Origin: Drechmeria coniospora
Lineage: Eukaryota; Ascomycota; Sordariomycetes; Hypocreales; Ophiocordycipitaceae
Assembly: GCF_001625195.1 (NCBI RefSeq)
Contig: NC_054390.1
Location: forward strand, 8,591,222 to 8,655,221
Direction of reading: 5' to 3'
DNA length: 64,000 nucleotides
Part shown: positions 11,151 through 44,985 of the stretch, piece by piece
Position numbering within the stretch: the stretch's first letter is position 1
Layout: the number at the start of each line of letters is the position of its first letter
Notes under the pieces: model-generated
What the model was told of the DNA's origin: nothing
Seen by the model: only the letters and a program-made list of their open reading frames with translations
The model's database searches: none
Made by a program: the position numbers and the translations under genes

Positions 11151-11424
11151 TCGTCGCGGGTGGTGATGTCGGCATGGGCTACGAATGGCGACGGGGCGGC
11201 TTTGAAACCAACGTCCACACCGGCGCAGAGCTCATAGTACGCCAAAGGACGGTGATCACTCCGATTCTTGGAGAACAGATGTGCCGCCTCGGGACAAAAA
11301 TACCACGAGTACCCCCCTCCTTACTCGTCTTGGCCAATCGGACTCTGGTTGGCTCGATTTCCAATCCCGTTCGCTGCACCACACGCGGTCAGCGCGACGA
11401 ACCCCTTGCATACCTCTTGCAATA
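11138..11424. repeat. Dispersed repeat, inverted relative to 37655-37940
   Basis: About 280 bp matches the reverse complement of 37655-37940. Landmarks are AACGGGATTGG, GACGAGTAA, ATTCTTGGAGAA/TTCTCCAAGAAT and GGCATGGGCTACGAATGGCGACGG versus its complement at about 37880-37905. It may be part of the retroelement whose gag precedes it or of a separate element. No intact open frame is shared by both copies. Confidence 0.75.
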
Positions 11425-11429
11425 ACACT

Positions 11430-12331
11430 AGTAGCGCAGTGTGTAATGCATCCAACAGGTGGCAAGATTCTTGTTGTGCCCGGTGTAGGTCCAGTTTTGT
11501 AATGGTAATAATAATACAGGTTTGAGTAACAATAATAGTAGTAATGCAGTTGCTTGTAAATTCTGTAGGCGGCAACATGGTTGAAGTTCGTTGGAGCCAA
11601 CAGTTGTTTTGGTAATAAGACCACCTGTAACTGTAATAATCACAGTTGTAGTGCAGCTGGTAATATATCCAGAAGGTTAGTGAATCATCGTTGTATCCGC
11701 TGTTGGTCCTAAGGTTGTAACTGTTATAAGCACGCCTATTTCAGTAATAACCACTCTTGCGGTGCAATCAGTAATACAACCAGGAGGTGGTACGATGGTC
11801 GAAGTTCCTGCTCTGTGGCCAAGAGTTGATTCAGTAAAGTAACCCTCAGTGACAGTAATAATAACTCGTGTAGTACATCCAGTAGTAATCCACCCAGATA
11901 TTGGCGCAGTTGTTCCAATGCGTTCTCTTCTGTTGGACCCGTTGGTATTATTGTAGTATTGCCACCGATTTCGGCAGAAATAATTTTATTCATGCAGTTA
12001 GTTGAGCAACCAGTAGCTGGTGGGATATTTGAAGTTCCAGGGCTATATCCAAGAGTTGCTTCAGCATTAAAGCCACCAGTTACTGTTGTCCAATGGTTGT
12101 TGTACAGCTGGTAGTGCATCCGCCCGTGGGCGGCATAGTCGTAGTACCAGGCACTGGTCCTTGAGTAATAACTGCTGTTACAAATCCTGTTTCCGTAATC
12201 ATTATTCGAGTAATGCAACTACTCGCACATCCTGGGGGTGGCCAGATGGTTGAATTATCAGTGATGGGGCCGATTGCTGAGCGGTTGTACTCAGAATCAT
12301 ATCCGTCAAGAAGCTTTGGTGTACTTCTCAT
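11430..12331 (-). pseudogene. Degraded antisense fragment of an adhesin-repeat gene
   Basis: Reading the minus strand from 12331 to 11430 shows several adhesin units with the C-x3-C signature: PPPGCASSCITRIMITETG, PPTGGCTTSCTTT, PPATGCSTNCMNK, and a last unit ending LPPV-x-CITHCATS. Frames are broken repeatedly by indels and stops. The terminal segment (about 11440-11560) matches the end of the fragment at 485-962 much better than it matches any unit of the intact gene. The two fragments therefore probably descend from one lost paralogue. Neither signal peptide nor GLEYA end is present. Confidence 0.8.
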
Positions 12332-20680: not shown

Positions 20681-23490
20681 TTCTGTTGTTGGTGTCACCA
20701 ATACGGCCTTCCTATAGATATATTCATTCTGGCTTGTAGCCCGCAGGTGTACCAAACTTTAGCGCGTCTCATCCCTTTAGTATCAAACTTAAATGGCCTT
20801 GTAATATTGGTTCTTCCCAGTGGGCAAAATCGTACTTTTTTGTCTCCCTAGTACGGACTGTCTGTGGATAGATTGCTCTTGCTTGCGGCCCGCAGGTGTA
20901 CCAAATTCTAGTACGTCTTGTCCCTTTAGAGTTAAACTTTTCCCTATTTCTCTACGAAACTTAAATAGCCTTATGATATTAGCTCTACCAAGTGGGTAAA
21001 ATCGTATTGTTAGTTTCCCTAGTACGGTCTGTCTGTAGATGGATTGCTCTTCCTTATAGCTCCCGTAGGTATACCAAACTTTGGTGCGTTTTATCCCTTT
21101 AGAAATAAACTTTTCCCTAATTCTCTACGGAACTTAAATGACCTTTTAATATTGGTTCTTCCCAGTAGGTAGAATCGTATTATTAGTTTCCCCAGTACGA
21201 TCTGTCTGTAGATGGATCGCTCTTGCTTGTAGCCCGCAGGTATACCAAACTACTATATTGGGAATTCTTTCGTTTAAATAGTGGTTTTTGTTTGATCGTT
21301 TCGGCTTGGCATGTCTGTTGGTCCTTTTATATGTAAGACGTTGTTTATGGGGATAGCCTGGAAGTTTATATTATACGCACCGTTTGAAAAAGAAAATGGG
21401 TTGCTGTTTGCGTGAATTAATGAAATGTACAAATTTTATATTGTACCGGGATCTGTTTGTTTACTTTCTCATTCTCTCTTCAGGACTACACTATTGATCT
21501 AGAGTAATGTTATTATACGTTAGTATTAAGTATTTGTAGGGGTAGTAGCGGGGGATATTTACTAATAATATACTTTCTAACGTATTACATCAATTTTATA
21601 ACTTTAATATTTATAATAGAGCAATACTCAGCCAGGAATCGTTTAGTATTCAGCCTCAAAAGCGCCTTGATATAGTGCCAACAACACCAGTCTTATAGTA
21701 TTTCCGTCTTAGCAAGGGCGAATATAGTTTTGGGAATGGCTATCAGCACACTCAGGGACCCGCTACGCTGATATTTGCTGATAATATACTTTCCGACGTA
21801 TCATCAATATTATAACTTTAATATTTAATATGGAGCAATGCTCCGCCTGAAACCTTTTGGTATTCAGCTTCAAAGGCGCCGTAATATAGCGCTAATTACA
21901 CTAATCTTGTATTTCCGTCTTAGCAAGGGCCAATATGATTTTGGAAATAGCTATCACTCAGGGATTCGCTACGCTAATATTTGCTGAAAATATACTTTCT
22001 GACGTATCATTTTAATATTTATAATGATAATATACTTTCTGACGTATCATCAATGTTATAACTTTAATATTTATAATGGCGCAATACTCAGCCAGGAATC
22101 GTTTAGTATTCAGCCTCAAAAGCGCCTTGATATAGCGCCAATAACACCAGTCTTGTAGTATTTCCATCTTAGCAAGGGCGAATATGATTTTGGGAATGGC
22201 TATCAGTACACTTAGGGACCCGCTACGCTGATATTTGCTGATAATATACTTTCCGACGTATCATCAATATTTTAACTTTAATATTTAATATAGAGCAATG
22301 CTTAGCCTGAAACCTCTAGCCTGGAAGTTTATATTATACGCACCGTTTGAAGAAAATGGGCTGCGGTTTGCGTGAATTAATGAAATGTACCAAATTCATA
22401 TCGTACCGGGATCTGTTTGTTTGCTTTCTCATCCTCTCTTCAGGACTACACTATTGATCTAGAGTAATGTTATCATATATTGGTATTTGGTACTTGTAGG
22501 AGTAGTGGCAGGGGATATTTACTAATAATATACTTTCTAATGTATTATGTCAATTTTATAACTTTAATATTTATAATAGAGCAATACTCAGCCAGAAATC
22601 TTTTAGTATTCAGCCTCAAAAGCGCCTTAATATAGCGCTAATAACACCAGTCTTGTAGAATTTCCGTCTTAACAAGGGCGAATATAATTTTGGGAATAGC
22701 TATCAGCACACTCGGGGATCCGCTACGCTGATATTTGCTGATAATATACTTTCTAACATATCATTAATGTTATAACTTTAATATTTAATATGGAGCCAAT
22801 ACTTAGCCTAAAACCTCTAGCCTGGAAGTTTATATTATATACACCGTTTGAAAAAATGGGCTGCCGTTTGCGTAAATGAATGAAATATACAAATTTCATA
22901 TCGTACCGGGATCTGTTTGTTTGCTTTCTCATTCTCTCTTCAGGACTACACTATTGATCTAGAGTAATGTTATTATATATTGGTACTTGGTATTTGTAGG
23001 GGTAGTGGCGGGGGATATTTACTGATAATATACTTTCTAACGTATTATGTCAATTTTATAACTTTAATATTTATAATAGAGTAATACTTAGCTAGAAATC
23101 TTTTAGCATTCAGCCTCAAAAGCGCCTTAATATAGCGCCAATAATACTAGTCTTGTGGAATTTCCGTCTTAGTTTGGCGCGTCTCATCCCTTTGGTATCT
23201 GCGCCACTCCTTATTTCTCCGAGGAACTTTCCACTGATTTTAATCCTATTCCATGCTAAACAGCCTTGGGGTATTGGTTCTTCCCAGTGTTTAGAATCAG
23301 GCTGTTTGGCTGTCTATAGGTAGTTTACTCTGACCTATGCTCTGCAGGTATACCGACTTCAGCGTGTCTTATCCTATTAAAATCTGTGCTTCTCCCAATT
23401 TCTCTATAGAACTTAAATAGCCTTAGGATATTGATTCTTCCCAGTATATAGAATTATGTTGTTAGTATCCCTAAGTGAGGCAGCAATTCC
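20680..23490. repeat. Satellite-like block of two interleaved AT-rich repeat families
   Basis: Family 1 (unit about 150-175 bp) has a core GCTTGTAGCCCGCAGGTATACC at about 20732, 20881, 21052 and 21225, with further decayed copies near 23170-23450. Family 2 has a core ATAATATACTTTC-ACGTAT followed by TATAACTTTAATATTTA at about 21567, 21780, 22028, 22232, 22526, 22740 and 23026. A longer module (AGCCTGGAAGTTTATATTAT..GGATCTGTTTGTTT..CTCTCTTCAGGACTACACTATTGATCTAGAGTAATGT) recurs at about 21357, 22318 and 22818. There are virtually no open frames. Copy differences are dominated by C/T and G/A changes, as expected from RIP. Confidence 0.8.
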
Positions 23491-24346: not shown

Positions 24347-27300
24347 ATGCGTTTAATACTATTCCTTTCAATTATATTCTATCAAGTTTGTTATTCTGCC
24401 GCTCGAGAAGATACTGACTGCATGAATGGAATTGTTTATGTCGAAGTTCAACCGCTTGATTTTGTATGCTCTCATGATTCCGCAGCAAAGAGCAGTATTA
24501 TTCGGTATTGTCCAATGCATACAGCATCCATAAAAAGTATACTACTAATTCTATCTAGATCGTATACCAGCTGTCCTCCAATTGTAAAAATAACCACATT
24601 AACAATACCTGGACCCAAGGCAGGCACCACAACGATACCGCCACCATTTGGATGCACGGAAAACTGCATATCAATCATTGTTGCTACCACTCCTACTATT
24701 AGCATATTAACAGAAACAACTTTAGGTCCAGTTCCCGGAACATCAACTATTCACCCGCCAATTTCATGCTCGGAATATTGCATTACATCAATAATCATTA
24801 CTACTACAGCAAGGATTCAAACGCACACAACTATTGGCCCAGTTCCTGGGATATCGACAATTCACCCTCAACCAGGATGCATTAGTAACTGTATCAAATC
24901 TATCATTGTTACAGTCACTGGCGGTGCTGTTACAGAAACGACTTTGGGCCAGGCTCCTGGGACGTCAACCATCCTCCCACTACCAGGATGCACTGAAAAT
25001 TGTAGTACTAGAATTATTGTTACGGTTACTGGTAGTGCTATAACAGAATCGACTTTAGGCCCGTCTCCTGGGACATCTACCATCCTCCCTCCACCAGGCT
25101 GTACAGAAAACTGTGTTACTAGAATCATAGTCACTGTTACTGGCGGTACTATATCAGAGACTACCGTAGGTCCTATGCCCGGTACATTAACCATCCTCCC
25201 TTTACCGGAATGCACTGAAAATTGTGCTACAAGAATTATCATTACAGTAACTGGCGGTAACATAACAGAAACAACCTCAGGCTTGGCTCCTGGGACGTCA
25301 ACCATCTTTCCTAGACCGGGATGCACGGAAAATTGCATTACTAGAGTTATAGTTACAGTTACTGGCGGTGCTATAACAGAAACAACATTGGGCCCTACTC
25401 TGGGGACAACAACCATTCTCCCTCTACCAAGATGCACCGAAAACTGTACTACAAGAATTATCGTTACAGTTACTGGCGGTACCGAAACAGAAACAACCCT
25501 AGGCCCGGTTCCTGGCACATCAACTATCCTTCCTCTACCGGGATGTATAGAAAATTGCATTACTAGAGTAATCGTTATAGTTACTGGTGGTACTATAACA
25601 GAAACAACCTTAGGCCCTGCTCTTGGGACATCAACTCTCCTCCCTCCATCAGGATGCACCAAAAACTGTATGACTAAAATTATCTTTACAGTTACTGGCA
25701 GTGCCGTAACAGAAACAACCTTAGGCCCTACTCCAGGGACATCAACTTTACCCCCTCCACCAGGATGCACTGAAAATTGTATTACTAAAATTATCGTTAC
25801 GGTCATTGGCAGTGCCATAACCCAAACGACTATAGGCCCAACTCCTGGTACATCGATCGTTCTCCCACCACCGGGATGTTCTACAGGTTGCATTACTACT
25901 ATTATTATAACTGAAACTGGCTATATCGAGACAGTTAGAACTCCTGGCTCAGTTCCTGGAACAAGTACTATCTTACCATTTCCTGGGTGCGCCAATGGAT
26001 GTACGACCAGAATCATCATTACTGTTACTGGCGGCATTTTGACTGAGACAACGATTGGTCCAATTCCTGGGACAGTTACTATCCAGCCATCATCTGAATG
26101 TATAACAGGATGTCTTACTAGAGTTATTGTTACTAAAACAGCTGGTATTCTTACTGTTTTTACTCCAGGCCCAACAGCTGGTACAACAACCATTCCACCT
26201 CCTCTAGGGTGTATTATTGACTGTACGACAAAAATTATTATTACCATTCCCGGTAGTGTGACCATAGAATCAACCCTGGGCCCTGTTCCAGGAATTACAA
26301 CAATCGCACCACCTCCCGGATGTCTCACTGACTGTATTACCAGAGTAGTCGTAACGGACACTGGTGTTTTGGAGACATTATTAACTTTTGGACCGATATC
26401 AGGTACATCAACTATTCTACCACCGCGAGGTTGTATCATTAGCTGTACTACCAGAGTTATTATAACTACGACTGGAAGTGTATTTACTGACACAGGCGTG
26501 CTTACAACGGTTATTACCCTAGGACCAACAGCGGGTACAACAACAATTCAACCACCACCTGGATGTATTACTAGCTGTACTACGACTGTAATTGTTACAA
26601 TTACAGGTAGGGTTGTTACCAAAACAACTATTGGTCCGAACATAGGAGCTTCAACTATCTTGCCACCTCCTGGTTGTATTACAAGCTGCACAACTAGTAT
26701 TATTGTTACCGTTACTGGGGTGTTAATTACTGAAACAACAATCGGGCCTAGTTCAGGGGTTTCAACTGTCTTGCCATCTTCTGGATGTATATCTGATTGT
26801 ACAACCAGAGTAATTATTACTGAACCGGGTTTTATTACAACACGCACGACTCTGGGGCCATCAGCAGGGACAACTACAGTCCAGCCACCTCCCGGATGTG
26901 TCACTAGCTGCACAACGACTATTATTGTCACCGAGACTGCCGGTATGACTACAATAACAAGTCTAGGTCCGACCCCTGGTACCTCAACAGTTTTGCCACC
27001 TTCTGGATGTATGGTAGGCTGTATTACAACCATAGTCGTCACCAAAACTAGTGGGTTTAAAACCATTACAACGACAGGATCGGTTCCCGGTACAACAACC
27101 GTCCTGCCGCCATCCGGATGCATTACGAGCTGTATCGGCAGTGTCATCATTACGGTTACTGGTGATGTTATAACTAGAACTACTTTAGGTCCGACCCCTG
27201 GTACCTCGACAGTTTTGCCACCTTCTGGATGTGTGGTAGGCTGTATTACAACCGTAGTTGTCACCGAAACTGGTGGGTTTAAAACTATTACAACGATAGG

Positions 27301-30300
27301 ATCAATTCCCGGTACAACAACCGTCCTGCCGCCGTCCGGATGCATTACGAGCTGTATCGGCAGTGTCATCATTACGGTTACTGGTGATGTTATAACTAGA
27401 ACTACATTAGGTCCGACCCCTGGTACCTCAACAGTTCTACCACCATCTGGATGTACTATAGGCTGTGTAGCAACTGTAATTGTCACCGAAACTGGTGGCT
27501 ATACGACTGTTACAACGATAGGGTCGGTTCCCGGTACATCAACAATCCCGCCCAATGTAGGATGTGTAGTTGGATGCATAACTACTATTATTATTACTAA
27601 AACCGGTGGCATTACGACGGCGACTACAATAGGTTCCTTTGCCGGAACCACAACGATTCCACCTCCGTTAGGATGCACTTCAAGCTGTACTACAAGCATT
27701 GTTATAACTATTACTGGCGGAATTGTAACAAAGACAACGATAGGCTCAATGCCTGGTACTTTGACAATTATGCCTCCCTCTGGGTGTCTTACTGGTTGTA
27801 CAACATCTATTATTATAACAAAAGTTGGTACCATCACGACTATTTTTACTACAGGTTCCGTCGCCGGTACTACAACTATCACGCCACCAGTAGGGTGTAT
27901 TTCAGGCTGTACTACAAGTATTATTGTCACTGCTACCGGCGAAGTATTGACAAAAACAACACTTGGTTCTACACCAGGTACATCTACAATTTTCCCACCC
28001 ACTGGATGCATTGCCAGGTGCATTACGTCTATTATTGTTACCCACACTGGGGCCATTACAACTATCACTACTCCAGGTTCTGTTGCCGGTACCACAACAA
28101 TCCTGCCGCCATTAGAATGTGTTGCAGGCTGTACTACAAGCGTCGTTATTACCGTTACTGGCGGAATCGTATCACAAACAACACTTGGCTCTACACCTGG
28201 CACGTCGACAATTCTTCCTTCCTCTGGGTGTATTACTGGATGTATGACATCTATTATCATTACAGAAACCGGTAGCATCACGACCATTACTACTCTGGGC
28301 TCCGTCGCTGGTACTACAACAATGTCGCCTCCATCAGGATGTACTACAAGCTGCATTACTCGTGTCGTTATTACTGAAACCGGCAATATTGTTACCATGA
28401 CCACCCTGGGCCCACAACCTGGTACCACAACGATCCCTCCATCATTGGGGTGTATTATACGTTGCACTACAAGCGTTATTGTAACTATTACTGGTAGAAT
28501 TGTAACACAGACAACGATAGGCTCATTGCCTGGCACTTCAACAATCATACCTCCATCCGGATGTCTCACTGGGTGTATTACATCAATTATTATTACTCAA
28601 ACTCGTGCCATTACGACCATGACTACTACAGGTTCCGTCGCCGGTACCACAACTATCCCGCCAGCGGCGGGATGTATCACACTATGCACCACAAGTGTTA
28701 TTGTCACGGTCACTGATGGAATTGTGACAAAGACAACTCTTGGATCAACACCCGGAACATCTACAGTTCTTCCTCCCTCTATGTGTAGTACTGGGTGTAT
28801 TACTTCTATTATTGTTACCGAAACAGGGGCCATTACAACTATCACTACTCCAGGTTCAGTAGCTGGAACCGCAACAATTCTGCCATCTACAGGTTGTAAT
28901 ACAAGCTGTACTACAAGCATCATTGTTACAGTTACTGGTGGAATAGTAACACAAACAACTCATGGCTCTACACCTGGTATATCTACGATTCTTCCTCCCT
29001 CTGGATGTATTACCAGTTGCCTTACATCCATTATTATTACACAAACTGGTAATATTGTAACAATTACTACTCCAGGTTCGGTAGCTGGAACCACAACTAT
29101 TCCACCATCCATTGGATGTAGTACAAGCTGTACCACAAGAGTCGTTATTACAGTCACTGGAGTAATAGTAACACAATTTACGTTTGGCCCTACGCCTGGC
29201 ACATGGACAATTCTTCCTTCTTCTGGATGTATTACTAGTTGTACTACATCTATCATCGTTACAGAAACTGGCGACATTGTAACAATTACTACCCCAGGCT
29301 CAGCAGCTGGTACCAGTACAATCTTGCCACCACTTGGATGCATAGCAAGCTGTACTACAAGCATTATCGTAACAGTAACTGGTGAAATTATAACAGAGAA
29401 CATTATTGGTTCTACACCCGGTACTTCTACAATTCTTCCTCCGTCTGGGTGTATTAAAAGTTGTACTACAAGCGTGGTTGTTACCGTTACTGGCGGATTG
29501 GTTACTCAAACAACTCTCGGCTCTATACTAGGCACATCAACAATTCTTCCATCCTCTGGATGTATTACTGGGTGCATTACATCTATTATTATCACTCAAA
29601 CTGGGGCTATTACAACTATTACTACCCCAGGTTTAATAGTTGGAACTACAACAATTTTACCATCAGCAGGTTGTGTAACACGCTGTACTACAAGCATCAT
29701 TGTTACTATTACCGGCAGAATAGTAACTCAAACAACTCTTGGCTCTACACCTGGTACATCTACAATTCTTCCACCCTCTGGTTGTATTACTGGGTGCATC
29801 ACATCTATTATTGTTACTCAAACTGGGGCCATTACAACTATTACAACCCCAGGTTCAATAGCTGGAACTACAACAATTTTACCATCAGCAGGTTGTGTAA
29901 CACGCTGTACTACAAGCATCATTGTTACTATTACCGGCAGAATAGTAACTCAAACAACTCTTGGCTCTACACCTGGTACATCTACAATTCTTCCACCCTC
30001 TGGTTGTATTACTGGGTGCATTACATCTATTATTGTTACTCAAACTGGGGCCATTACAACTATTACAACCCCAGGTTCAATAGCTGGAACCACAACAATT
30101 CCGCCATCAGCAGGTTGTGTTACAAGCTGTACCACAAGCGTGGTTGTTACCGTTACTGGCGGATTGGTTACTGAAACAACTCTCGGCTCTATACCAGGCA
30201 CATCAACAATTCTTCCATCCTCTGGATGTACTACTGGGTGCATTACATCTATTATTGTTACCCAAACTGGGGCCATTACAACTATTACTACCCCAGGTTC

Positions 30301-33300
30301 AATAGCTGGAACCACAACAATTCTGCCATCAGCAGGTTGTATTACAAGCTGTACTACAAGCGTGGTTGTTACCGTTACTGGCGGATTGGTTACTGAAACA
30401 ACTCTCGGCTCTATACCAGGCATATCAACAATTCTTCCATCCTCTGGATGTACTACTGGGTGCATTACATCTATTATTGTCACCCAAACTGGGGCCATTA
30501 CAACTATTACTACCACAGGTTCAATAGCTGGAACTACAACAATTCTGCCATCAACAGATTGTGTTACACCATGTACTACAAGCATCATTGTTACTATTAC
30601 CGGCAGAATCGTAACTCAAACAACTTTTGGCTCTACACCTGGTACATCTACAATTCTTCCATCCTCTGGATGCATTACTGGGTGCATCACATCTATTATT
30701 GTTACTTACACTGGGGCCATTACAACTATTACTACCCCAGGTTCAATAGCTGGAACAACAACAATTCTGCCATCAACAGATTGTGTTACACCATGTACTA
30801 CAAGCATCATTGTTACTATTACCGGCAGAATCGTAACTCAAACAACTTTTGGCTCTACACCTGGTACATCTACAATTCTTCCATCCTCTGGATGCATTAC
30901 TGGGTGCATCACATCTATTATTGTTACTTACACTGGGGCCATTACAACTATTACTACCCCAGGTTCAATAGCTGGAACAACAACAATTCCGCCATCAGCA
31001 GGTTGTGTTACACGATGTACTACAAGCATCATTGTTACCGTAACCGGCAGAATAGTAACTCAAACAACTCTTGGCTCTACACCTGGTACATCTACAATTC
31101 TTCCACCCTCTGGTTGTATTATTGGGTGCATTACATCTATTATTGTTACTCAAACTGGGGCCATTACAACTATTACGACCCCAGGTTCAATAGCTGGAAC
31201 CACAACAATTCCGCCATCAGCAGGCTGTGTTACAAGCTGTACCACAAGCGTTGTTGTTACCGTTACTGGCGGATTGGTTACTCAAATAACTCTCGGCTCT
31301 ATACCTGGCACATCGACAATTCTTCCTTCCACTGGATGTATTACCGGTTGCATTACATCCATAATTATTACACAAACTGGTCATATTGTAACAATTACTA
31401 CTCCAGGTTCAGCAGCCGGTACTACTACAATTTCGCCACCACCTGGATGTATTGCAAGCTGTACTATAAGCGTCGTCATCACAGTAACTGGTGAAACCAG
31501 AACACAAACAACTCTTGGTTCCATACCTGGTACATCTACAATTCTTCCATCCTCTGGATGTATTACTGGGTGCATTACATCTATTATTATTACTCAAACT
31601 GGGGCCATTACAACTATTACTACCCCAGGTTCAAGAGCTGGAACTAGAACAATTCCACCATCAGCAGGTTGTGTTACACGATGTACTACAAGCATCATTG
31701 TTACCGTGACCGGCAGAATAGTAACTCAAACAACTCTTGGCTCTACACCTGGTACATCTACAATTCTTCCACCCTCTGGCTGTATTACTGGGTGCACCAC
31801 ATCTATTATTGTTACTCAAACTGGGGCCATTACAACTATTACGACCCCAGGTTCAATAGCTGGAACTACAACAATTCCACCATCAGCAGGTTGTGTTACA
31901 AGCTGTACCACAAGCGTTGTTGTTACCGTTACTGGCGGATTGGTTACTCAAACAACTTTCGGCTCTATACCTGGCACATCGACAATTCTTCCTTCCACTG
32001 GATGTATTACCGGTTGCATTACATCCATAATTATTACACAAACTAGTCATATTGTAACAATTACTACTCCAGGTTCAGCAGCCGGTACTACTACAATTTC
32101 GCCACCACCTGGATGTATTGCAAGCTGTACTATAAGCGTCATCATCACAGTAACTGGTGAAACCAGAACACAAACAACTCTTGGCTCCATACCAGGCACA
32201 TCTACGATTCTTCCGTCCTCTGGATGCTTCACTAGCTGTACTACATTTATTGTTATTACTCAAACCGGTAGAATTATTACTATTACTACTCCAGGTTCAG
32301 TAGCTGGAACCACAACAATTCTGCCATCAGCCGGTTGTGTTCGGAGCTGTACCACAAGCGTGGTTGTTACCGTTACTGGCGGATTAGTTACTCAAACAAC
32401 TCTTGGCTCTACACCTGGTACATCTACTATTCTTCCATCCTCTGGATGTATTACTGGGTGTATTACATCTATTATTGTTACTCAAACTGGGGCCATTACA
32501 ACTATTACTACCCCAGGTTCAATAGCTGGAACTACAACAATTCCGCCATCAGCAGGTTGTGCTACAAGCTGTACTACGAGCATCATTGTTACCGTAACCG
32601 GTAGAATAGTAACTCAAGCAACTCTTGGCTCTACACCTGGTACATCTACGATTCTTCCTTCCTCTGGATGCTTGACTAGCTGCACTACATTTATTGTTAT
32701 TACTCAAACTGGTAGGATTATTACTACTACTACTCCAGGTTCAGTTGCTGGAACCACAACAATTCTGCCATCAGCTGGTTGTGTTCGGAGCTGTACCACA
32801 AGCGTGGTTGTTACCGTTACTGGCGGATTAGTTACTCAAACAACTCTTGGCTCTACACCTGGTACATCTACTATTCTTCCATCCTCTGGATGTATTACTG
32901 GGTGTATTACATCTATTATTGTTACTCAAACTGGGGCCATTACAACTATTACTACCCCAGGTTCAATAGCTGGAACTACAACAATTCCACCATCAGCAGG
33001 TTGTGTTACACGATGTACTACAAGCATCATTATTACCGTAACCGGCAGAATAGTAACTCAAACAACTCTTGGCTCTACACCTGGTACATCTACAATTCTT
33101 CCACCCTCTGGTTGTATTACTGGGTGCATCACATCTATTATTGTTACTCAAACTGGGGCCATTACAACTATTACAACCCCAGGTTCAATAGCTGGAACCA
33201 CAACAATTCCGCCATCAGCAGGTTGTGTTACAAGCTGTACCACAAGCGTGGTTGTTACCGCTACTGGCGGATTGGTTACTGAAACAACTCTCGGCTCTAT

Positions 33301-36300
33301 ACCAGGCACATCAACAATTCTTCCATCCTCTGGATGTACTACTGGGTGCATTACATCTATTATTGTTACCCAAACTGGGGCCATTACAACTATTACTACC
33401 CCAGGTTCAATAGCTGGAACCACAACAATTCTGCCATCAGCCGGTTGTATTACAAGCTGTACTACAAGCGTGGTTGTTACCGTTACTGGCGGATTGGTTA
33501 CTGAAACAACTCTCGGCTCTATACCAGGCATATCAACAATTCTTCCATCCTCTGGATGTATTACTGGGTGTATTACATCTATTATTATTACTCAAACTGG
33601 GGCCATTACGACTATTACTACTCCAGGTTCAGTAGCTGGAACTACAACAATTCCACCATCTGCAGGTTGTGTTACACGCTGTACTACGACTGTAATTATT
33701 ACAGTAACTGGTGGAATTGTAACTCAAACAACATTCGGATCAATCCCTGGTACATCTACGATTATGCCTCCTTCTGGATGCGTAACAAGTTGCATTACAT
33801 CCATCGTTGTTACTCAACCTGGTGGGATTACAACCATTACAACTCCCGGTCCGGTGGCTGGTACCTCAACAAAGCCGCCGTCACCGGGATGTGTTACAAG
33901 CTGTACTACAAGCATTATTATTACCTATACTGGTAGAATTGTTACAGAGACAACTCTTGGCTTCTCGCTCGGTACATCCACAATTCTTCCTCCCTCTGGG
34001 TGTATTACTGGCTGTATTACGTCTATCATTATTACACAAACTGGCGCAATTACCACCATTACCACCCCTGGTTCTGTGTCAGGTACTACAACAATCCACC
34101 CACCATCAGGCTGTGTTATTAGCTGTACAACAAGTGTTATTATTACTATACCGGGCGCAATCACGACCATAACAACTCTAGGATCTATGGCTGGTTCTTC
34201 AACAATTGTACCAGTGTCCGACTGTATTGGCTGCACGACAAGTATCATCATTACACAACCAGGTGTTCTTATAACAGTCATTACCACTGGCCCTGTAGTG
34301 GGTACGACAACAATTCCGCCGCGCTCTGGCTGTGTCCTGAGCTGTACGACAAGTGTCATTATAACTGTTACAGGTGGAATTGTAACAGAAACAACCATTG
34401 GTTCAACTCCTGGCACGTCTACAATTCTTCCGCCGTCGGGATGCATTACTGGCTGCATTACATCTATTGTTATCACTCAAACAGGTGGTATTACAACTAT
34501 TACTACGCCAGGTTCTGTTCCCGGTACTACAACAATCTTACCACCAGTGGGTTGTGTAGCAAATTGCACCACAAGTGTTGTTGTCACCGTAACAGGTGCA
34601 ATTGCCACTGTAACAACTTCAGGACCAGTCGCCGGTACAACTACAATCAATCCAGCTTCTGACTGTATTTCTGATTGTACTACAAGTGTCATTATTACTC
34701 AGACTGGCGCCATCACGACTGTTACAACAGTGGGATCAATAGCTGGCACTACAACAATACCACCAGCCGCTGGATGTACCCTTGGCTGTACTTCCAGCGT
34801 CATTGTTACTATAACTGGTGCAATTATTACCATAACAACTCCAGGATCGGTCGATGGTACAACAACAATCACCCCGGCATCTAATTGCCTCCGGGATTGT
34901 ACTACAAGCGTAATCATAACTCAACCAGGTGTCATAACTACCATTACAACGCTTGGATCAATAGTTGGCACTACAACCTTATCACCATCCGCTGGTTGTA
35001 CACGTAGCTGTACAACCAGTGTCATTGTTACTATAACTGGTGCATTCATCACTGTAACAACTCCAGGTTCAGTTGCTGGTACAGAAACAATCACACCTGC
35101 CTCTAGCTGTATTAAGAGCTGTACTACAACTGTTATCATCACTCAACCAGGTGTTATTACTACCATTACAACCCCTGGTTCCATAGCTGGCACGACAACA
35201 ATACCTCCAGTTGCTGGATGCATCCTTGGTTGCACCACGAGAGTTATTGTTACCATCCCTGGCTTTATTGTCACTCGAACCACTCTTGGCTCTGCTCCAG
35301 GATCATTAACAATTCCGCCATCGCCTGGATGTATTTCGAGCTGCACTACGAGTATCATCATCACGGTCACGGGTGAAGTTGTAACCATTACAACTCCAGG
35401 GTCGGTGTTTGGTACCACCACCATTACACCAACAGCTGGTTGCGTTGTTAGCTGCATTACAAGGGTAATTATTACAGAACCCCCTGATGTCGTTATCACT
35501 TCAACCGTAGTTGGACAAACAGCGACCGCATGCACAATCCCCCCGGTATCCGACTGTACTCGCCCTTGTACTACGAGCATTATTGTTGTTACAGTCCCAG
35601 CAGATGTTGCTATTACTTCCACGGTGAGTGGACAAACACGCACCACATCGACTATTCATCCATTATCAGATTGCATACATCCTTGTACAACAAGAGTTAT
35701 TATAGTTACAGTACCTCCTGATGTGGCCGTAACAACATCCGTCACTACTGGTACAGTTCCCGGCACAACTACTATTTTACCATCATCTGGGTGTATACAT
35801 CCATGTACTACTAGAATTATCATTACTCGGCCCGTTGATACGGTTGTTACAACAACGGTAACTGGGTCAGTATTCCGAACTTCGACTATTCCGCCATTAT
35901 CTGGATGCACGCCTCCGTGCACGACAAGTGTTGTCATCATGTTGCCCGCTGATACAGCAGTTACAACCACTGTAACCGGGTCATTGCATGGCACCACCAC
36001 CCTCACACCACCAGCCGACTGCACACATCCGTGTACCACAACTGTTATTGTTACCACCATAAGTGTACCGGTAGGCGCTTGTGAAACTATAGCTCCAACA
36101 TGCATTCCACTTGGAGCAGGTCGATTAAATGTTGATTTGTATACCAATATTTACGCCGATGTTCCAAATCAGGTGGGATATTACTCGAATATTGAAGGCG
36201 TAGGAGTATCACCGGATTACTACATGTCTAAATCTCGACTGAATCACGGTACGACAGATACTATGATTGTTCCCTTTGTCGCGCGACCAAGTGTTGGCTG

Positions 36301-36706
36301 TGTCCAATTTGAAACGGAGATGATATATTGCCCTGGAGTTACTTTCACATTTGGTGGAATGGTTATTGATGCAAACAATTATACCCTCGTCTTCAGTGGC
36401 TATTTTAAACCGCCAACCACTGGTAATTACACAATTTGTGAGTATGCGGACGAGGTTGACTTTTTTTATATTGGGGAGGCTGCATTCCCGTGTGATCAAC
36501 CGTTGAACCCACCCTTTGGGGCTTTAAGCTCTCAATTTGAACAATCGACGAGATGTACGTCATACTACTTTGTTAAAGGATTTTATTATCCTATTCGTTC
36601 AGTTTTTGCAAATTATGGCCTTCCTACACAGAACACTATTACAGTTGATCCCGGTGATGGTTCAAACTTGAACATGACGAACTACATCTATGCTGCTTCC
36701 TGTTAA
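24347..36706 (+). CDS. Giant secreted repeat adhesin with C-terminal GLEYA-like domain
   Basis: 4119 residues in one uninterrupted exon. Residues 1-18 form a signal peptide (MRLILFLSIIFYQVCYSA). A non-repeated region with six Cys follows, to about residue 82. Roughly 100 tandem units of 37 residues then run to about 3915, with consensus G-[ST]-x-P-G-T-[ST]-T-I-x-P-P-S-G-C-x3-C-T-T-S-I-I-V-T-x-T-G-x-I-x-T. The last six or so units diverge (GCIHPCTT, DVAITSTV). Residues about 3925-4119 resemble a GLEYA/PA14 lectin-like domain: YTLVFSGYFKPPTTGNYTIC, FFYIGEAAFPC, YYPIRSVFANYG. Known GLEYA and flocculin-like proteins are fungal surface adhesins that bind glycans, so attachment to host or cell surfaces is the likely role. 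No GPI signal is seen; the protein ends NYIYAASC. Thr/Ser density predicts heavy O-mannosylation. The gene is AT-rich and has GC-poor codons unlike the housekeeping genes. Confidence 0.9.
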   Translation: MRLILFLSIIFYQVCYSAAREDTDCMNGIVYVEVQPLDFVCSHDSAAKSSIIRYCPMHTASIKSILLILSRSYTSCPPIVKITTLTIPGPKAGTTTIPPPFGCTENCISIIVATTPTISILTETTLGPVPGTSTIHPPISCSEYCITSIIITTTARIQTHTTIGPVPGISTIHPQPGCISNCIKSIIVTVTGGAVTETTLGQAPGTSTILPLPGCTENCSTRIIVTVTGSAITESTLGPSPGTSTILPPPGCTENCVTRIIVTVTGGTISETTVGPMPGTLTILPLPECTENCATRIIITVTGGNITETTSGLAPGTSTIFPRPGCTENCITRVIVTVTGGAITETTLGPTLGTTTILPLPRCTENCTTRIIVTVTGGTETETTLGPVPGTSTILPLPGCIENCITRVIVIVTGGTITETTLGPALGTSTLLPPSGCTKNCMTKIIFTVTGSAVTETTLGPTPGTSTLPPPPGCTENCITKIIVTVIGSAITQTTIGPTPGTSIVLPPPGCSTGCITTIIITETGYIETVRTPGSVPGTSTILPFPGCANGCTTRIIITVTGGILTETTIGPIPGTVTIQPSSECITGCLTRVIVTKTAGILTVFTPGPTAGTTTIPPPLGCIIDCTTKIIITIPGSVTIESTLGPVPGITTIAPPPGCLTDCITRVVVTDTGVLETLLTFGPISGTSTILPPRGCIISCTTRVIITTTGSVFTDTGVLTTVITLGPTAGTTTIQPPPGCITSCTTTVIVTITGRVVTKTTIGPNIGASTILPPPGCITSCTTSIIVTVTGVLITETTIGPSSGVSTVLPSSGCISDCTTRVIITEPGFITTRTTLGPSAGTTTVQPPPGCVTSCTTTIIVTETAGMTTITSLGPTPGTSTVLPPSGCMVGCITTIVVTKTSGFKTITTTGSVPGTTTVLPPSGCITSCIGSVIITVTGDVITRTTLGPTPGTSTVLPPSGCVVGCITTVVVTETGGFKTITTIGSIPGTTTVLPPSGCITSCIGSVIITVTGDVITRTTLGPTPGTSTVLPPSGCTIGCVATVIVTETGGYTTVTTIGSVPGTSTIPPNVGCVVGCITTIIITKTGGITTATTIGSFAGTTTIPPPLGCTSSCTTSIVITITGGIVTKTTIGSMPGTLTIMPPSGCLTGCTTSIIITKVGTITTIFTTGSVAGTTTITPPVGCISGCTTSIIVTATGEVLTKTTLGSTPGTSTIFPPTGCIARCITSIIVTHTGAITTITTPGSVAGTTTILPPLECVAGCTTSVVITVTGGIVSQTTLGSTPGTSTILPSSGCITGCMTSIIITETGSITTITTLGSVAGTTTMSPPSGCTTSCITRVVITETGNIVTMTTLGPQPGTTTIPPSLGCIIRCTTSVIVTITGRIVTQTTIGSLPGTSTIIPPSGCLTGCITSIIITQTRAITTMTTTGSVAGTTTIPPAAGCITLCTTSVIVTVTDGIVTKTTLGSTPGTSTVLPPSMCSTGCITSIIVTETGAITTITTPGSVAGTATILPSTGCNTSCTTSIIVTVTGGIVTQTTHGSTPGISTILPPSGCITSCLTSIIITQTGNIVTITTPGSVAGTTTIPPSIGCSTSCTTRVVITVTGVIVTQFTFGPTPGTWTILPSSGCITSCTTSIIVTETGDIVTITTPGSAAGTSTILPPLGCIASCTTSIIVTVTGEIITENIIGSTPGTSTILPPSGCIKSCTTSVVVTVTGGLVTQTTLGSILGTSTILPSSGCITGCITSIIITQTGAITTITTPGLIVGTTTILPSAGCVTRCTTSIIVTITGRIVTQTTLGSTPGTSTILPPSGCITGCITSIIVTQTGAITTITTPGSIAGTTTILPSAGCVTRCTTSIIVTITGRIVTQTTLGSTPGTSTILPPSGCITGCITSIIVTQTGAITTITTPGSIAGTTTIPPSAGCVTSCTTSVVVTVTGGLVTETTLGSIPGTSTILPSSGCTTGCITSIIVTQTGAITTITTPGSIAGTTTILPSAGCITSCTTSVVVTVTGGLVTETTLGSIPGISTILPSSGCTTGCITSIIVTQTGAITTITTTGSIAGTTTILPSTDCVTPCTTSIIVTITGRIVTQTTFGSTPGTSTILPSSGCITGCITSIIVTYTGAITTITTPGSIAGTTTILPSTDCVTPCTTSIIVTITGRIVTQTTFGSTPGTSTILPSSGCITGCITSIIVTYTGAITTITTPGSIAGTTTIPPSAGCVTRCTTSIIVTVTGRIVTQTTLGSTPGTSTILPPSGCIIGCITSIIVTQTGAITTITTPGSIAGTTTIPPSAGCVTSCTTSVVVTVTGGLVTQITLGSIPGTSTILPSTGCITGCITSIIITQTGHIVTITTPGSAAGTTTISPPPGCIASCTISVVITVTGETRTQTTLGSIPGTSTILPSSGCITGCITSIIITQTGAITTITTPGSRAGTRTIPPSAGCVTRCTTSIIVTVTGRIVTQTTLGSTPGTSTILPPSGCITGCTTSIIVTQTGAITTITTPGSIAGTTTIPPSAGCVTSCTTSVVVTVTGGLVTQTTFGSIPGTSTILPSTGCITGCITSIIITQTSHIVTITTPGSAAGTTTISPPPGCIASCTISVIITVTGETRTQTTLGSIPGTSTILPSSGCFTSCTTFIVITQTGRIITITTPGSVAGTTTILPSAGCVRSCTTSVVVTVTGGLVTQTTLGSTPGTSTILPSSGCITGCITSIIVTQTGAITTITTPGSIAGTTTIPPSAGCATSCTTSIIVTVTGRIVTQATLGSTPGTSTILPSSGCLTSCTTFIVITQTGRIITTTTPGSVAGTTTILPSAGCVRSCTTSVVVTVTGGLVTQTTLGSTPGTSTILPSSGCITGCITSIIVTQTGAITTITTPGSIAGTTTIPPSAGCVTRCTTSIIITVTGRIVTQTTLGSTPGTSTILPPSGCITGCITSIIVTQTGAITTITTPGSIAGTTTIPPSAGCVTSCTTSVVVTATGGLVTETTLGSIPGTSTILPSSGCTTGCITSIIVTQTGAITTITTPGSIAGTTTILPSAGCITSCTTSVVVTVTGGLVTETTLGSIPGISTILPSSGCITGCITSIIITQTGAITTITTPGSVAGTTTIPPSAGCVTRCTTTVIITVTGGIVTQTTFGSIPGTSTIMPPSGCVTSCITSIVVTQPGGITTITTPGPVAGTSTKPPSPGCVTSCTTSIIITYTGRIVTETTLGFSLGTSTILPPSGCITGCITSIIITQTGAITTITTPGSVSGTTTIHPPSGCVISCTTSVIITIPGAITTITTLGSMAGSSTIVPVSDCIGCTTSIIITQPGVLITVITTGPVVGTTTIPPRSGCVLSCTTSVIITVTGGIVTETTIGSTPGTSTILPPSGCITGCITSIVITQTGGITTITTPGSVPGTTTILPPVGCVANCTTSVVVTVTGAIATVTTSGPVAGTTTINPASDCISDCTTSVIITQTGAITTVTTVGSIAGTTTIPPAAGCTLGCTSSVIVTITGAIITITTPGSVDGTTTITPASNCLRDCTTSVIITQPGVITTITTLGSIVGTTTLSPSAGCTRSCTTSVIVTITGAFITVTTPGSVAGTETITPASSCIKSCTTTVIITQPGVITTITTPGSIAGTTTIPPVAGCILGCTTRVIVTIPGFIVTRTTLGSAPGSLTIPPSPGCISSCTTSIIITVTGEVVTITTPGSVFGTTTITPTAGCVVSCITRVIITEPPDVVITSTVVGQTATACTIPPVSDCTRPCTTSIIVVTVPADVAITSTVSGQTRTTSTIHPLSDCIHPCTTRVIIVTVPPDVAVTTSVTTGTVPGTTTILPSSGCIHPCTTRIIITRPVDTVVTTTVTGSVFRTSTIPPLSGCTPPCTTSVVIMLPADTAVTTTVTGSLHGTTTLTPPADCTHPCTTTVIVTTISVPVGACETIAPTCIPLGAGRLNVDLYTNIYADVPNQVGYYSNIEGVGVSPDYYMSKSRLNHGTTDTMIVPFVARPSVGCVQFETEMIYCPGVTFTFGGMVIDANNYTLVFSGYFKPPTTGNYTICEYADEVDFFYIGEAAFPCDQPLNPPFGALSSQFEQSTRCTSYYFVKGFYYPIRSVFANYGLPTQNTITVDPGDGSNLNMTNYIYAASC
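24590..36090 (+). repeat. 111-bp tandem array with 222-bp higher-order unit
   Basis: Each 37-residue unit is 111 bp. From about 28,000 to 33,700 units alternate as A (GCITGCITSIIVTQTGAITT) and B (AGCVTRCTTSIIVTVTGRIV), so the homogenised period is 222 bp. Exact offsets can be read: the block at 29681 recurs at 29903 (222), the block at 31381 at 32047 (666), and the block at 30121 at 33229 (3108 = 14 x 222). The outer units at both ends are much more diverged from one another. Confidence 0.9.
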
Positions 36707-37536: not shown

Positions 37537-38070
37537 ATGGTGAACACACACGGAACTCAGGCTCGAGGTAACGAAAACTCGACGACCGGCCGCAACTCAG
37601 ACGGTGCTGTCGACAGGTACTCGCCGACCACATCAGGAAGCAACTACGAACCTAGCGGTATTCAAGGGTTCGTCGTGGCGACCACGTGTAGAGCAGCAAA
37701 CGGGATTGGCCATCGACTCAACCAAAGTTCGATGGGCCAAGACGAGTAAAAAGAGGGGTACTCGTAATAGTCCTTTGTCCTGATGTGGCACATCTATTCT
37801 CCAAGAATCGGAGCAATTACAGAATTTCGGCTCACCATGAGCTCCGCGCCGGTGTGGGCGTCGGTTTCAAGGCTGTCCCGTCGCCATTCGTAGCCCATGC
37901 CGGCATCACTATACGCGACGAAGACGGAGAGGCTTTTGGAACGGGAGCTCAAGGCGACCCGAGCAGAGCGAGGCCGGCTGACGGAGGAACTCTACGAGAC
38001 AAGAGTGGACTACAGACCGCGAAATCCTGGTCCGCCGTTGCCTGGATATATTGAGCTCCATCCATTTTCA
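37537..38070 (+). mobile_element. Probable transposon remnant containing the 37655-37940 repeat
   Basis: A 70-codon frame (MVNTHGTQARGNENSTTG) ends inside the repeat shared, inverted, with 11138-11424. After it a Glu/Arg-rich coiled stretch can be read in another frame (LERELKATRAERGRLTEELY, ending VANR at 38085). Breaks in frame and the repeated core suggest a decayed element, but no transposase, reverse transcriptase or terminal repeat identifies its class. Confidence 0.4.
37655..37940. repeat. Dispersed repeat, inverted copy of 11138-11424
   Basis: It reads as the reverse complement of the earlier copy over about 280 bp (GGTATTCAAGGGTTCGTCG, AACGGGATTGGCCATCGA, CCCATGCCGGCATCAC). The two copies lie near the two ends of the AT-rich island. 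Confidence 0.75.
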
Positions 38071-41866: not shown

Positions 41867-44800
41867 CTACTCCTCTTCCGAGTCCGAGTCGTCGCTCGAG
41901 TCGGCCATGGGCGTCGGCGCCTGGATGGTGCCCTCGCCCTCGCCCGGTTCCTGTCCCGAGTTGTACATGTTTTGGAGGGCAGTCAGCTGCGCAATCTTGG
42001 CCTCCTGCTCCTTGGCGCTCATCGGCTTGTTCTTCTTCGGCTTCGACGCCGACTTGGCCCCCTGCTTGGCCGTCGACCGGCCGACCTCTGGCGACGACTT
42101 GGGGCCGCCGGCCAGGTCCTTGCCGAAGCCCGGCAGAGCCTTCTTGCAGAGCTCCCACAGCTTGGATAGCGCTTCGGTGCTCAGCTGATCAATGTCGAGC
42201 TCGAGCTCGCCTTCCGTGTTCTCCTGTTCGCACGAGTCAGCCACGCCTCAAGGTGCCGCCGCGCCCGTTGCCACTTACATTCTGCCCCGTGTCCGTCTTG
42301 ATTATGTCTATGGCGCGATCGAGATGAGAGGCGTCGAGATCGTTGATGGCGTTGGCGATGGCGTCCTTCTCCGCCGCCGTCAGATTCTTCTTGGCCTTCT
42401 TGGAACCGCCGCCCGACTTCTTCGCGTGGCCGGGCCCGCTGATGGATTTGCGACCTCCGACGCCGCCCGCCGCCTTGGCCCGGCCGCCCTTGCCGGCCTT
42501 CTTCGCCGGCTTCTCGCTCTTCGGTTGCGTCTGCGCGTCCTTGACCGCCTTGATGAGAGCATTCTGGACCATATCGACGATGCCTCTTTGAACCAAGATC
42601 ATGGCTTCGTTGGCGCTGAGGAGCATCTTGTTCAGCTTCGTCGTCTCCTCCTCCAGCTTGGCCTGCAGCGCCTCAATCTCCGCCTTGTTGGGCATCGTCT
42701 CGGTCGCCTCCTCGCCGTCGTCGTCCTCCTCCTCGTCGTCGTCACTGGCGTTCGAGGTCGAGGCCGCGGGCGCGCTCGCCTTGGCCGCGTGCCTGGCCAG
42801 CCACGAATCCTTGTTCTTCATCTGCGCGCCGTACAGGTCGTCGAGCTGCTTGGCGAGCACCGACACGGGGTTGCCCTGATCCGGGGGGCCGTTGAACTTG
42901 TAGCAGTTGTCGAAGACGAGCCGGACGTTCTTGTCAAAGTCCTTGAGGCTAGAAATGTCCCCCGTCGCCAGGTTGTGATGCACCTTGCCCAGGTCCATGG
43001 GCTTCTTGATGACGTTGTGGTACGTCGGGATGCCGAGACCCTCGGCGTCGACGGGCTCGAGGAACCACTGGTTGATCTCGTGGTGCTTGGGGTGCATGAT
43101 TTCCGTCAAGACCTCGTCGCAGAACTGAAGCTCGGGCTTGAGCTTCTTGCGCGACGGCTTCGTCGTGTAGTCGATATCCTTGGGCTTCGGCGCCCGGACC
43201 GTCCGCTTAGGCCTGTCGCCGTCCGTCGCCGTCGAGGCCCTACGATCGTCGTACGGTTCCGGGGGCGTGGCAGTGACGGGTGCGGCCGTCTCGGTCAGGG
43301 GGCTCGGCGCAGGAGCCGTCGACTGTCGCCGCGCCGCCGATTCGGTGACGACGGCTCGGGGCTCGCGCGCCGGTTTCGCCTTCGGAACGGCCTTGGGTCG
43401 GGCGGGCTCCTCGACCGGTATCGGCAGGACGTCCTGCCAGATGGTCGTCACGGCTTGGGCGGCGGCGGCCGTGATGTCGTGGGCGGGCCCGTTGAACGTC
43501 AACGCGTTCTCGAACATGAGGGCCAGATCCTTCCTGAACTGGCCCAGCGTCACGATGGAGCTGTTGGGGTCGCGGACGTTCCGATCGAGCTCCGAGAGAT
43601 CCATGGGCTTCTCGATGCGGGCAATGTACGAGTCCCAGAGGAAGGGCCACAGCTTCTGGACCGAGTCGCGAAAATGCGCACCCGCCTTGGTCTTCTTGAC
43701 GCGTCCGATGACCTTGCGGATCTCGCGGCGCTGGAAGGGAGACAGCTCCTTGGCGTTTGTCTCCGAGTCGGACCAGCGCGTCAGGCTGGTGAGAACCGTC
43801 ATGTCGAGACCCGGGGCGTCGGACGCCACGCCGGTGGAACCGGCCGGCGTGGACGAGCTTGCCGTCGGCTCGCCGGCAGCCGCGACGGCGCTCGCCTCGT
43901 CGTCCTTGGGCTCCGTCCTGGCCCGTTTGGAAGCCGGTTCCTCGGCCGTGTCATCCTCGCGCTCGCGTGCGACCTTGGCGCCCGGGGCATCGGCCATGGG
44001 CGCTTCGGGAGACGCCTCGGCCGGCGACGCCTTCCCGGTTCCCTCGATGGCGAGCTGGGACATGCTGGCCGAGCCCAGATCAACTTCGGACGTGGGCAGC
44101 GCGGCTGCATCCTGCGAGGGGGGAGCGGCGTCACCGACACGGGCCGTCTCCGTGGCGCCCGCCGAGCTCTCGGCCGGCGCATCCGTCATATCTTCGTCTT
44201 GCGTCTTGCCGTCGGCGGCGGCGGCGGTGGCCTCGGAAGGCCCCGTGGTTGCTTTCGCGGTTTTGGCTTCGCCCGACGGCGGAGAGTCGGTCCGGGGCGT
44301 GGCTTCGCGCATTTCAACATCCTCGGTCCGCGAAGGGCTCCGGGCAGGAGTCGACCGCTTCGCCGCCCGTGCGGGTTCGTCTTCTCCTCGAGCCGGTCCC
44401 GCAGACGGACCGTCCTTCTTGGACTCGACTACTTTTTCTTCGGTCGAGGCGGCCGCGGTGGCCTTTGCGGCCGGTTCGGGCCCATCCGATGGCTTTGGCT
44501 GAGCGGCCGTCGACTCCGCCTCGGTTCTGGGGGCTACCTCGTCGGTCTCGACGGCGTCGGTGTCGGATTTGGTCGGGCCATCCGCCGTTCCGCTGCCGTT
44601 CAGGGCACAGCTCTCGGCTCCCGTCTTGGGGGAACCGGCGCGTTGTTGCGTCGTCGAGGCGTCCTTGGTGGAGGCAGGCTCCGGGCGTGACTCTCTCGCG
44701 GATGCACCCACGGGTGGCTCCGTCATGGCAGGCTCTTTCGGGGGCGCGTGGCTGTTTTTGGGCGAGTCAGTCCGAGACTTCGCACGAGCGTGGGCGTGTC

Positions 44801-44985
44801 GAGGCAACAGCGATGACGAGTGCACCGGGGCTCATGGCCTCGGGCAAGAGCCAGCGGACCACGCACGCTCCGTCGACAGAGGGGTTGGGCGTGGTGCACG
44901 GCAGAAGGGGCGAAATGACTCACCCGTTAGGCACTTCCTCCGGCTTGGGATCGGGGACGGCGGCGTCGGGGCGCGGCGATGCCAT
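41867..44985 (-). CDS. bdf1: BET-family double bromodomain protein (Bdf1-like), three exons
   Basis: Model: complement(join(41867..42223, 42279..44751, 44924..44985)), 963 residues. Exon 1 encodes MASPRPDAAVPDPKPEEVPN; both introns (172 bp GTGAGT..AACAG, 55 bp GTAAGT..AACAG) keep frame. The order is a long Ala/Pro/Ser/Glu-rich acidic N-terminus with a KRAR basic patch; bromodomain 1 (about 361-463; FNGP acetyl-lysine Asn near 441); bromodomain 2 (about 557-666; CYKFNGP Asn near 641); an acidic tract; a coiled coil; a Lys-rich segment; an NET domain that spans the last intron (DRAIDIIKTDTGQN joined to ENTEGELELDIDQL); and a Ser/Asp/Glu tail. It binds acetylated histones H3/H4 and works with TFIID and chromatin regulators in the nucleus. 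Without the introns the NET domain would be cut in half. Confidence 0.93.
42224..42278 (-). other. Intron 2 of the BET gene (within the NET domain)
   Basis: Minus-strand donor GTAAGTGG at 42278 and acceptor GCGAACAG ending at 42224; 55 bp, phase 0. Removal joins the two halves of the NET domain. Confidence 0.88.
44752..44923 (-). other. Intron 1 of the BET gene
   Basis: Minus-strand donor GTGAGTCA at 44923, acceptor CAAAAACAG ending at 44752; 172 bp. It joins the 20-codon first exon in frame (phase 2) to HAPPKEPAMTEP. A branch-like GACTGAC lies about 20 bases before the acceptor. Confidence 0.78.

Follow-up and report, generated by a model that had tools for sequence, protein, structure and literature searches.

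A giant reading frame and its parts

The window analysed here, a 64,000-nt stretch of the Drechmeria coniospora genome, carries on its forward strand one uninterrupted reading frame of 4119 residues, which runs from an ATG at 24347 to a stop codon at 36706. Its parts are listed below, together with the remains of a second array upstream.

11200..12300, minus strand: degenerate remains of a related C-x3-C array, frame broken (tblastx to the intact array 45-71% among the best 20 pieces)
24347..24504, plus strand: predicted exon 1, signal peptide and short N-terminal module (VxVExxPxxxxCS), ending in an Arg codon split by the intron
24505..24558, plus strand: predicted intron of 54 nt, GT..AG, with a CTAAT branch-like site, from paralog comparison
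24559..36706, plus strand: predicted exon 2, stalk and tip, starting ..SYTSC and extending to the stop codon
24653..36034, plus strand: stalk, from the sequence, with 102 C-x3-C pairs in mostly 37-residue units that alternate as A and B (111/222-nt period)
29672..33556, plus strand: recently homogenised part of the stalk, coordinates computed from unit comparison
36059..36703, plus strand: C-terminal tip of about 215 residues, start chosen by eye, the last Cys being its end
36380..36646, plus strand: GLEYA domain (PF10528), residues 4012-4100 (Pfam E 3.6e-14, 53.3 bits against a cut-off of 26.2)
36449..36454, plus strand: Asp4035-Glu4036, at the position of the Flo5/Epa Asp-cis-Asp calcium motif by alignment with Epa9, the second Asp being replaced by Glu

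The first-pass annotation had read the gene as one exon without a stop. The open frame stands, and the one-exon reading is probably wrong because paralogs predict a 54-nt intron at 24505-24558: its position agrees with that of the paralog introns, which measure 54-75 nt in 16 strict matches, and the long frames of the paralogs start near the exon junction and exclude exon 1. The window intron is in frame and stop-free by chance, so that the unspliced reading gives a single 4119-residue frame; the spliced protein would have 4101 residues. The signal peptide proposed earlier is upheld by a hydrophobic start in all 24 first-exon rows aligned, the window's among them (called by the count of hydrophobic residues in 16 rows and by eye in eight). 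The reported lack of a GPI signal agrees with hydropathy, by which the C-terminal 30 residues are polar and the last windows lie below zero, so that the protein appears to end without a GPI tail.

A search against NCBIfam gave no match, and Pfam matches to GFP, QSregVF_b and DUF3732 are taken as repeat artefacts, with no passing stretch for any of them. Pfam gave no ALS match in this protein, ALS-type repeats occurring only in some paralogs; the DIPSY search matched nowhere at all, so that its silence here does not show absence. None of the 236 + 372 homologue candidates from a large protein collection reached E 1e-3; this collection seems poor in fungal proteins, and uniqueness is therefore not claimed from the empty search.

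The stalk had been described as about 100 units of 37 residues with an invariant C-x3-C. Count and period hold, with 102 pairs and a spacing of exactly 37 residues in 93 of 101 cases; invariance does not, being partly by construction since the units were located by that motif, and the only 73-residue gap contains a unit with C-x2-C (Cys 3293/3296). The protein has 1074 Thr and 386 Ser among its 4119 residues, in a 37-residue period. A partner at 97% or more exists for 26 of 93 units, and every best partner lies at an even unit lag (2-28), so that recent duplication has proceeded by whole A/B pairs. Between units, dN/dS is 0.21 for neighbours, 0.30 at lag 2 and 0.29 at lag 20, with dS values of 1.68, 0.64 and 0.95, respectively. 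Selection on the frame, suggested in the first reading, is thus borne out at dN/dS 0.21-0.30 over dS 0.6-1.7, and 747 of the 4119 codons of the frame stand one step away from a stop. The stalk may adopt a beta fold held by disulphides and carry glycans. A five-repeat fold model, based on 58 aligned rows taken from the array itself, is poor (pLDDT 50.5, pTM 0.51); it has strands that recur in each unit, at low confidence, and the best PDB match to the repeat had an E of only 0.25.

At the C-terminus, profile searches confirm the GLEYA-like domain that had been noticed by eye. The accompanying suggestion of PA14-like motifs fared less well, PA14 (PF07691) scoring 18 bits against a cut-off of 24. 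By sequence, the relatives in the PDB are flocculins, Flo5, Epa9 and Cea1, with E 5.2e-5 for the best of them, and the closest tip among the loci compared is that of C1:12278k, with 48-51% identity (48% over 224 aligned positions, E 6e-56; loci are designated by contig and position). The family alignment has 33 GLEYA rows, tandem copies included, with one domain of C1:8k entering two times because its hit is split. In 31 of these rows the calcium motif begins with Asp; its second position holds Asn in 20 rows, Asp in 10, Ala in two and Glu in the window alone. The loop after GN/GQ is highly variable, and the second-loop Asn of the window is present, in FANYG. The role of Asp-cis-Asp in PA14/GLEYA lectins is described in PMC8621652 and PMC6308950, as far as covered; calcium-dependent sugar binding by the window tip is uncertain because the second calcium Asp is replaced by Glu.

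That everything else around the gene is broken had also been claimed, and this fits, within what was examined, only the AT-rich upstream stretch (~6-24 kb); past ~37 kb the window turns GC-rich and holds recognisable genes. Ordinary neighbours there are a bromodomain/BET protein at 42237-44825 (minus strand) and an Utp12 protein at 48830-50056 (plus strand). The AT-rich stretch contains remnants matching AMP-binding_C at 13626-14222 (minus strand, 2e-9) and a methyltransferase at 15676-16311 (plus strand, 3e-8), which are possibly decayed metabolic genes. Directly upstream of the giant gene, 20785-23171 consists of tandem repeats of 173, 214 and 500 nt, with GC down to 34%. Two peptides from outside the family that look alike by eye (..QP.xxxPRRVxRGVLV..) lie near the broken and the intact array, at 11256-11639 (minus strand) and 37692-38054 (plus strand), and perhaps represent a repeated element at array edges. 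CpG is depleted in the giant gene, where observed/expected is 0.62 and falls to 0.33 in the central array; for the majority of the GC-rich kilobases of the window the ratio is ~1.0-1.3. Heavy RIP in the region was considered and set aside, the indices being mixed and not strong.

A family of giant frames with a common first exon

The genome searched is 32.83 Mb in size, and its three large contigs measure 12.54, 10.20 and 9.75 Mb. GLEYA gave 64 matches among 66 scored candidates, all over the cut-off, at 39 loci by our own grouping, 20 of which have frames of 3368-6916 residues; DUF6923 gave 37 matches from 40 candidates, a few of them under the cut-off. A five-repeat stalk query matched further arrays without GLEYA among the 150 scored of 1369 candidates, so that counts of giant frames (3300 residues or more) are lower bounds. 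There are at least 31 such frames, spanning 3368-6916 residues (median 4136, quartiles 3906-4436): 20 carry GLEYA, seven DUF6923 only, and four fall outside both classes. The frame is broken or short at several family loci.

Both classes of locus gather near chromosome ends: 24 of the 31 giant frames lie within 600 kb of one (3.4 expected), as do 29 of 38 GLEYA loci on the three chromosomes, the contig C7 locus being left out (4.2 expected). Unlike most of the family, the window gene is an interior member, 1.58 Mb from its chromosome end.

Some local arrangements are recorded here in their own right. Lengths of 3500-4500 residues occur in 22 of the 31 giant frames despite differing stalk types and tip numbers, with a peak near 4000. 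At C2:5142654-5148762 two arrays of opposite orientation have equal match scores (2302 and 2101 residues), forming an inverted pair, and the frames at C3:9640286 (4035 residues) and C3:9661366 (885 residues), 20 kb apart, have tips 94% identical with dS 0.18.

Ten of the first 11 paralogs inspected have a short signal-peptide exon with VxVExxPxxxxC, followed by an intron that ends just before R-[TS]-Y, and the start codon of this exon lies ~200-255 nt upstream of the repeat-frame start. In all, such an exon was found in 30 of 42 family regions: 24 of 34 at GLEYA loci, the window counted, and six of eight at other giant frames, three of these eight having been chosen because the exon-1 search matched there. 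A strict search for exon, intron and junction accounts for 16 of the 34 GLEYA regions, and inspection added eight. The exon was not found in the other 10, in part because the frame start was only estimated for the 1.1-kb pieces fetched. The first exon is short (~50 residues) and divergent (12-53% identity to the window's). The 24 exons aligned share invariant Glu33 and Cys41 (window numbering; alignment A2). With the window exon as query, eight matches had E ≤0.1 and five E ≤1e-5, three of these five lying upstream of frames tipped with DUF6923.

The tips are of several kinds: GLEYA domains (one to four), DUF6923 domains (one to five), a combination of the two, or some other region. GLEYA and DUF6923 stand together in the 6916-residue frame at C3:600k and in a 1390-residue frame at C3:9736k. 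In 19 of 21 mapped loci the last GLEYA ends 19-44 residues before the frame end; the exceptions are the broken C2:40k locus (151 residues) and the 6916-residue frame, in which DUF6923 follows GLEYA. Several giants contain ALS-type repeats above the Pfam cut-off (PF05792), and at C2:414-429k, where no exon 1 was found, another C-terminal region follows such repeats. This further kind of tip belongs, at C2:413900-418000, to a 4642-residue giant frame with ALS-type repeats, and the region is devoid of credible Pfam matches (Ig-like by eye). The member at C2:4249k (GC 54% over a 3.3-kb locus) has the family first exon, a GLEYA domain whose calcium motif is the canonical Asp-Asp, and C-x3-C repeats of ~42 residues; it may be close to the ancestral form.

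For tip pairs with dS 0.05-1.2 (61 of 465 pairs from 31 tips, hits of 80 residues or fewer being dropped), the median dN/dS is 0.45, and tandem tips of one gene, among the pairs listed, range from 0.18 to 0.56. Purifying selection is the average regime in both the stalk and the tips, and positive selection as the average regime of the tips is rejected by the same median.

First exons and tips have unlinked histories

Exon-1 identity and tip identity were compared in the 15 genes for which both parts were in hand, using the last tip where several are present. They are uncorrelated (Mantel r = -0.05, p 0.67), and the nearest relatives by the two parts agree in none of the 15. Parts that are physically linked behave otherwise in the same test: r is 0.64 for exon 1 and the exon-2 start (where the exon-2 piece is just 8 residues long in C2:4249k and 85 in C2:10147k), 0.76 for the signal and the rest of exon 1, and 0.81 for the N- and C-terminal halves of GLEYA (14 genes, C1:8k left out), with 0 of 5000 permutations as high, although nearest relatives agree in only 5/15, 10/15 and 7/14 genes, respectively. 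The exon-2 start and the tip, again, give r = -0.09, with agreement in 1/15.

Individual genes illustrate the discord. The first exon nearest to the window's is that of C1:156k (53-55% identity), but their tips are 30% identical, and C1:12278k, nearest to the window by tip, has a first exon only 16% identical to it. Between C1:7805k and C1:12354k, DNA identity is 78% along 2301 nt that reach from upstream of exon 1 to the end of the similarity in the stalk, and exon 1 is 88% identical, yet their tips are 34% identical in the single protein alignment confined to the tip. The tip of C1:7805k matches the last tip of C2:168k at 80% identity, and the first exons of these two genes are 20% identical. 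Misassembly of long arrays does not explain the mismatch between C1:7805k and C1:12354k, since these genes are ~3 kb long.

On a tree of 30 first exons, built from 53 columns only and with 13 of 27 inner branches open, GLEYA and DUF6923 tips need five changes, against a mean of 5.6 after shuffling, with 160 of 500 shuffles as low. The well-supported branches alone force at least three changes of tip type, and the clade of the window (95/92) mixes C1:156k, tipped with GLEYA, and C3:152k, tipped with DUF6923.

Known adhesins and the meaning of the family

The C-terminal position of the lectin-type domain had been put forward at first as a reversed design. It is not new, because fission-yeast GLEYA/DIPSY adhesins already have this layout (PMC13147542, PMC6308950, PMC6023273): as the covered parts of these papers describe them, crediting Linder & Gustafsson 2008, they begin with a signal peptide, continue in repeats rich in Ser and Thr, end in a GLEYA or DIPSY region and lack a GPI signal. 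A predicted signal peptide, Thr-rich tandem repeats, a C-terminal GLEYA domain and a polar C-terminus are likewise found in the window protein. The likeness to the agglutination proteins Map4 and Pfl includes tandem repeats of beta type (PMC6023273, PMC13147542, in the parts covered), and Map4 reportedly exposes its C-terminal DIPSY region at the outer wall, glucanases not releasing the protein (PMC6023273, in part). What sets D. coniospora apart from fission yeast is the many frames of 3400-6900 residues, the C-x3-C in the units, the intron-split N-terminal module, one to five tandem tips with unlike tip families on one plan of stalk, and loci that number in the dozens, the majority close to a chromosome end. 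The repeats of the fission-yeast GLEYA/DIPSY proteins we take to be ~36 residues long.

The Flo/Epa proteins (PA14/GLEYA) of budding yeasts have a lectin-type domain homologous to that of the window, as the PDB matches Flo5, Epa9 and Cea1 indicate, and in Candida glabrata, according to the literature covered in part, this type of family is likewise large and near chromosome ends. Their plan, an N-terminal PA14/GLEYA lectin domain with a C-terminal GPI anchor, is the reverse of that of the window gene, whose protein has neither feature.

For D. coniospora itself, nine GLEYA and ten ALS proteins have been annotated (PMC4792172, in part), which presumably belong to the giant family; nine seems far below the 39 GLEYA loci found here. 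The covered part of that account makes no mention of giant size, a common first exon, DUF6923 tips or tip exchange. The repeat-only, Drechmeria-specific proteins of 'paralogous group 2' are mostly clustered and, by description, differ from the tipped giants in having no recognisable domain, one member measuring 471 residues (PMC4859500, in part); they may be pieces of giant adhesin genes. The literature on GLEYA, DUF6923 and D. coniospora adhesins, within the share of it covered, reports no giant GLEYA genes, common first exon or swapped tips for this fungus. New, within that coverage, are the giant family, the common first exon with its intron and the exchangeable tips; the layout with a C-terminal lectin was already known. 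The window gene is a real, intact and selected member of that architectural class, greatly enlarged.

On this basis it is likely that the window gene encodes a secreted giant adhesin of a large family, in which recombination within the stalk joined N-terminal modules and tips anew to produce a repertoire of binding heads. The N-terminal module would stay with the cell wall, some 100 Thr-rich, Cys-paired 37-residue units would form the stalk, and the C-terminal GLEYA lectin-type domain would be carried outward, where the glycan that it binds would most likely belong to the nematode cuticle or to sister cells. New combinations of module and tip, and with them the repertoire, would then arise as shared stalks recombine. 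Surface location, wall attachment, expression, glycan ligand and a role in nematode infection are all conjectural parts of this proposal. More tentatively, and with slightly less than even confidence, we consider that the family may constitute a combinatorial system, in which dozens of giant wall-held stalks present heads of unrelated families (GLEYA lectin, DUF6923 and others) in one to five tandem copies, exchanged within the shared repeats to give changeable cuticle-binding specificities.

The C. elegans genes bus-2, -4, -12 and -17 presumably act in glycosylation. Spore adhesion is increased in these surface-coat mutants (PMC7847803), which speaks for the adhesin proposal; against it counts that just one of the nine annotated GLEYA proteins, DCS_00041, is high in conidiogenesis or conidia and in infection (PMC4792172, in part).

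A role in cohesion between cells or within the spore coat, the proteins acting like flocculins that bind fungal wall glycans or each other and not the nematode, is the less likely but most serious alternative. Fission-yeast proteins of like layout are indeed flocculins and sexual agglutinins (PMC13147542, PMC6023273, PMC3516552, in the parts covered), and the tips, with their median dN/dS of 0.45, carry no average sign of an arms race. However, host binding is matched at least as well by the size of the family and its position near chromosome ends, by the specialisation of the fungus on its host (PMC4792172, in part) and by the way in which spore adhesion depends on the surface coat of C. elegans (PMC7847803).

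It is unlikely that this is an ordinary expanded family of C-terminal GLEYA proteins whose mismatch arose through gene conversion of the first exon or saturated divergence and not through tip exchange. In favour, gene conversion is common in near-end families, and the first exon, of ~50 residues and 12-53% identical to that of the window, is short and divergent; yet linked parts correlate strongly in the same test (r 0.64-0.81), high-identity pairs conflict in both directions (first exons at 88% but tips at 34% in one pair, tips at 80% but first exons at 20% in another), tips of different families occur on one clade of N-terminal modules, and conversion of the module would itself be reassortment.

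Selfish repeat growth or pseudogenes, in which the frame would owe its openness simply to the youth of the array or to a shortage of stops, would account for the nearly identical central units (26/93) and the broken copies, but is very improbable: neighbouring units, old as they are (dS 1.68), keep the frame at dN/dS 0.21, a single step would turn 747 of 4119 codons into a stop, and exon 1, intron and tip are conserved among paralogs. Assembly chimaeras, in which misjoined arrays mixed modules and tips, are the most improbable of all, since, hard as 12-kb arrays are to assemble and although long tandem repeats make up most breaks in another D. coniospora assembly (PMC7500977, in part), the five-repeat query of the window is only 53-78% identical to the repeats of other genes among the matches listed, too unlike for confusion, the mismatch is equally clear in ~3-kb genes, and the published assembly was made with PacBio reads and optical mapping (PMC4792172, in part).

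In summary, first exon and tip of these genes have unlinked histories, and recombination within the stalk, the step that would have reassorted them, is the likely explanation. D. coniospora is a nematode pathogen used with C. elegans, for which the covered part of the literature names only candidates for the molecule that makes spores stick, a Mad1 orthologue and the GLEYA protein DCS_00041 among them. Adhesion being the first step of this widely used infection model, giant adhesins with exchangeable heads provide further candidates for it and a testable reason for host range. The family points to a fungal version of the modular surface-protein repertoires, with a repeat stalk that would be a recombination adaptor and not only a spacer.
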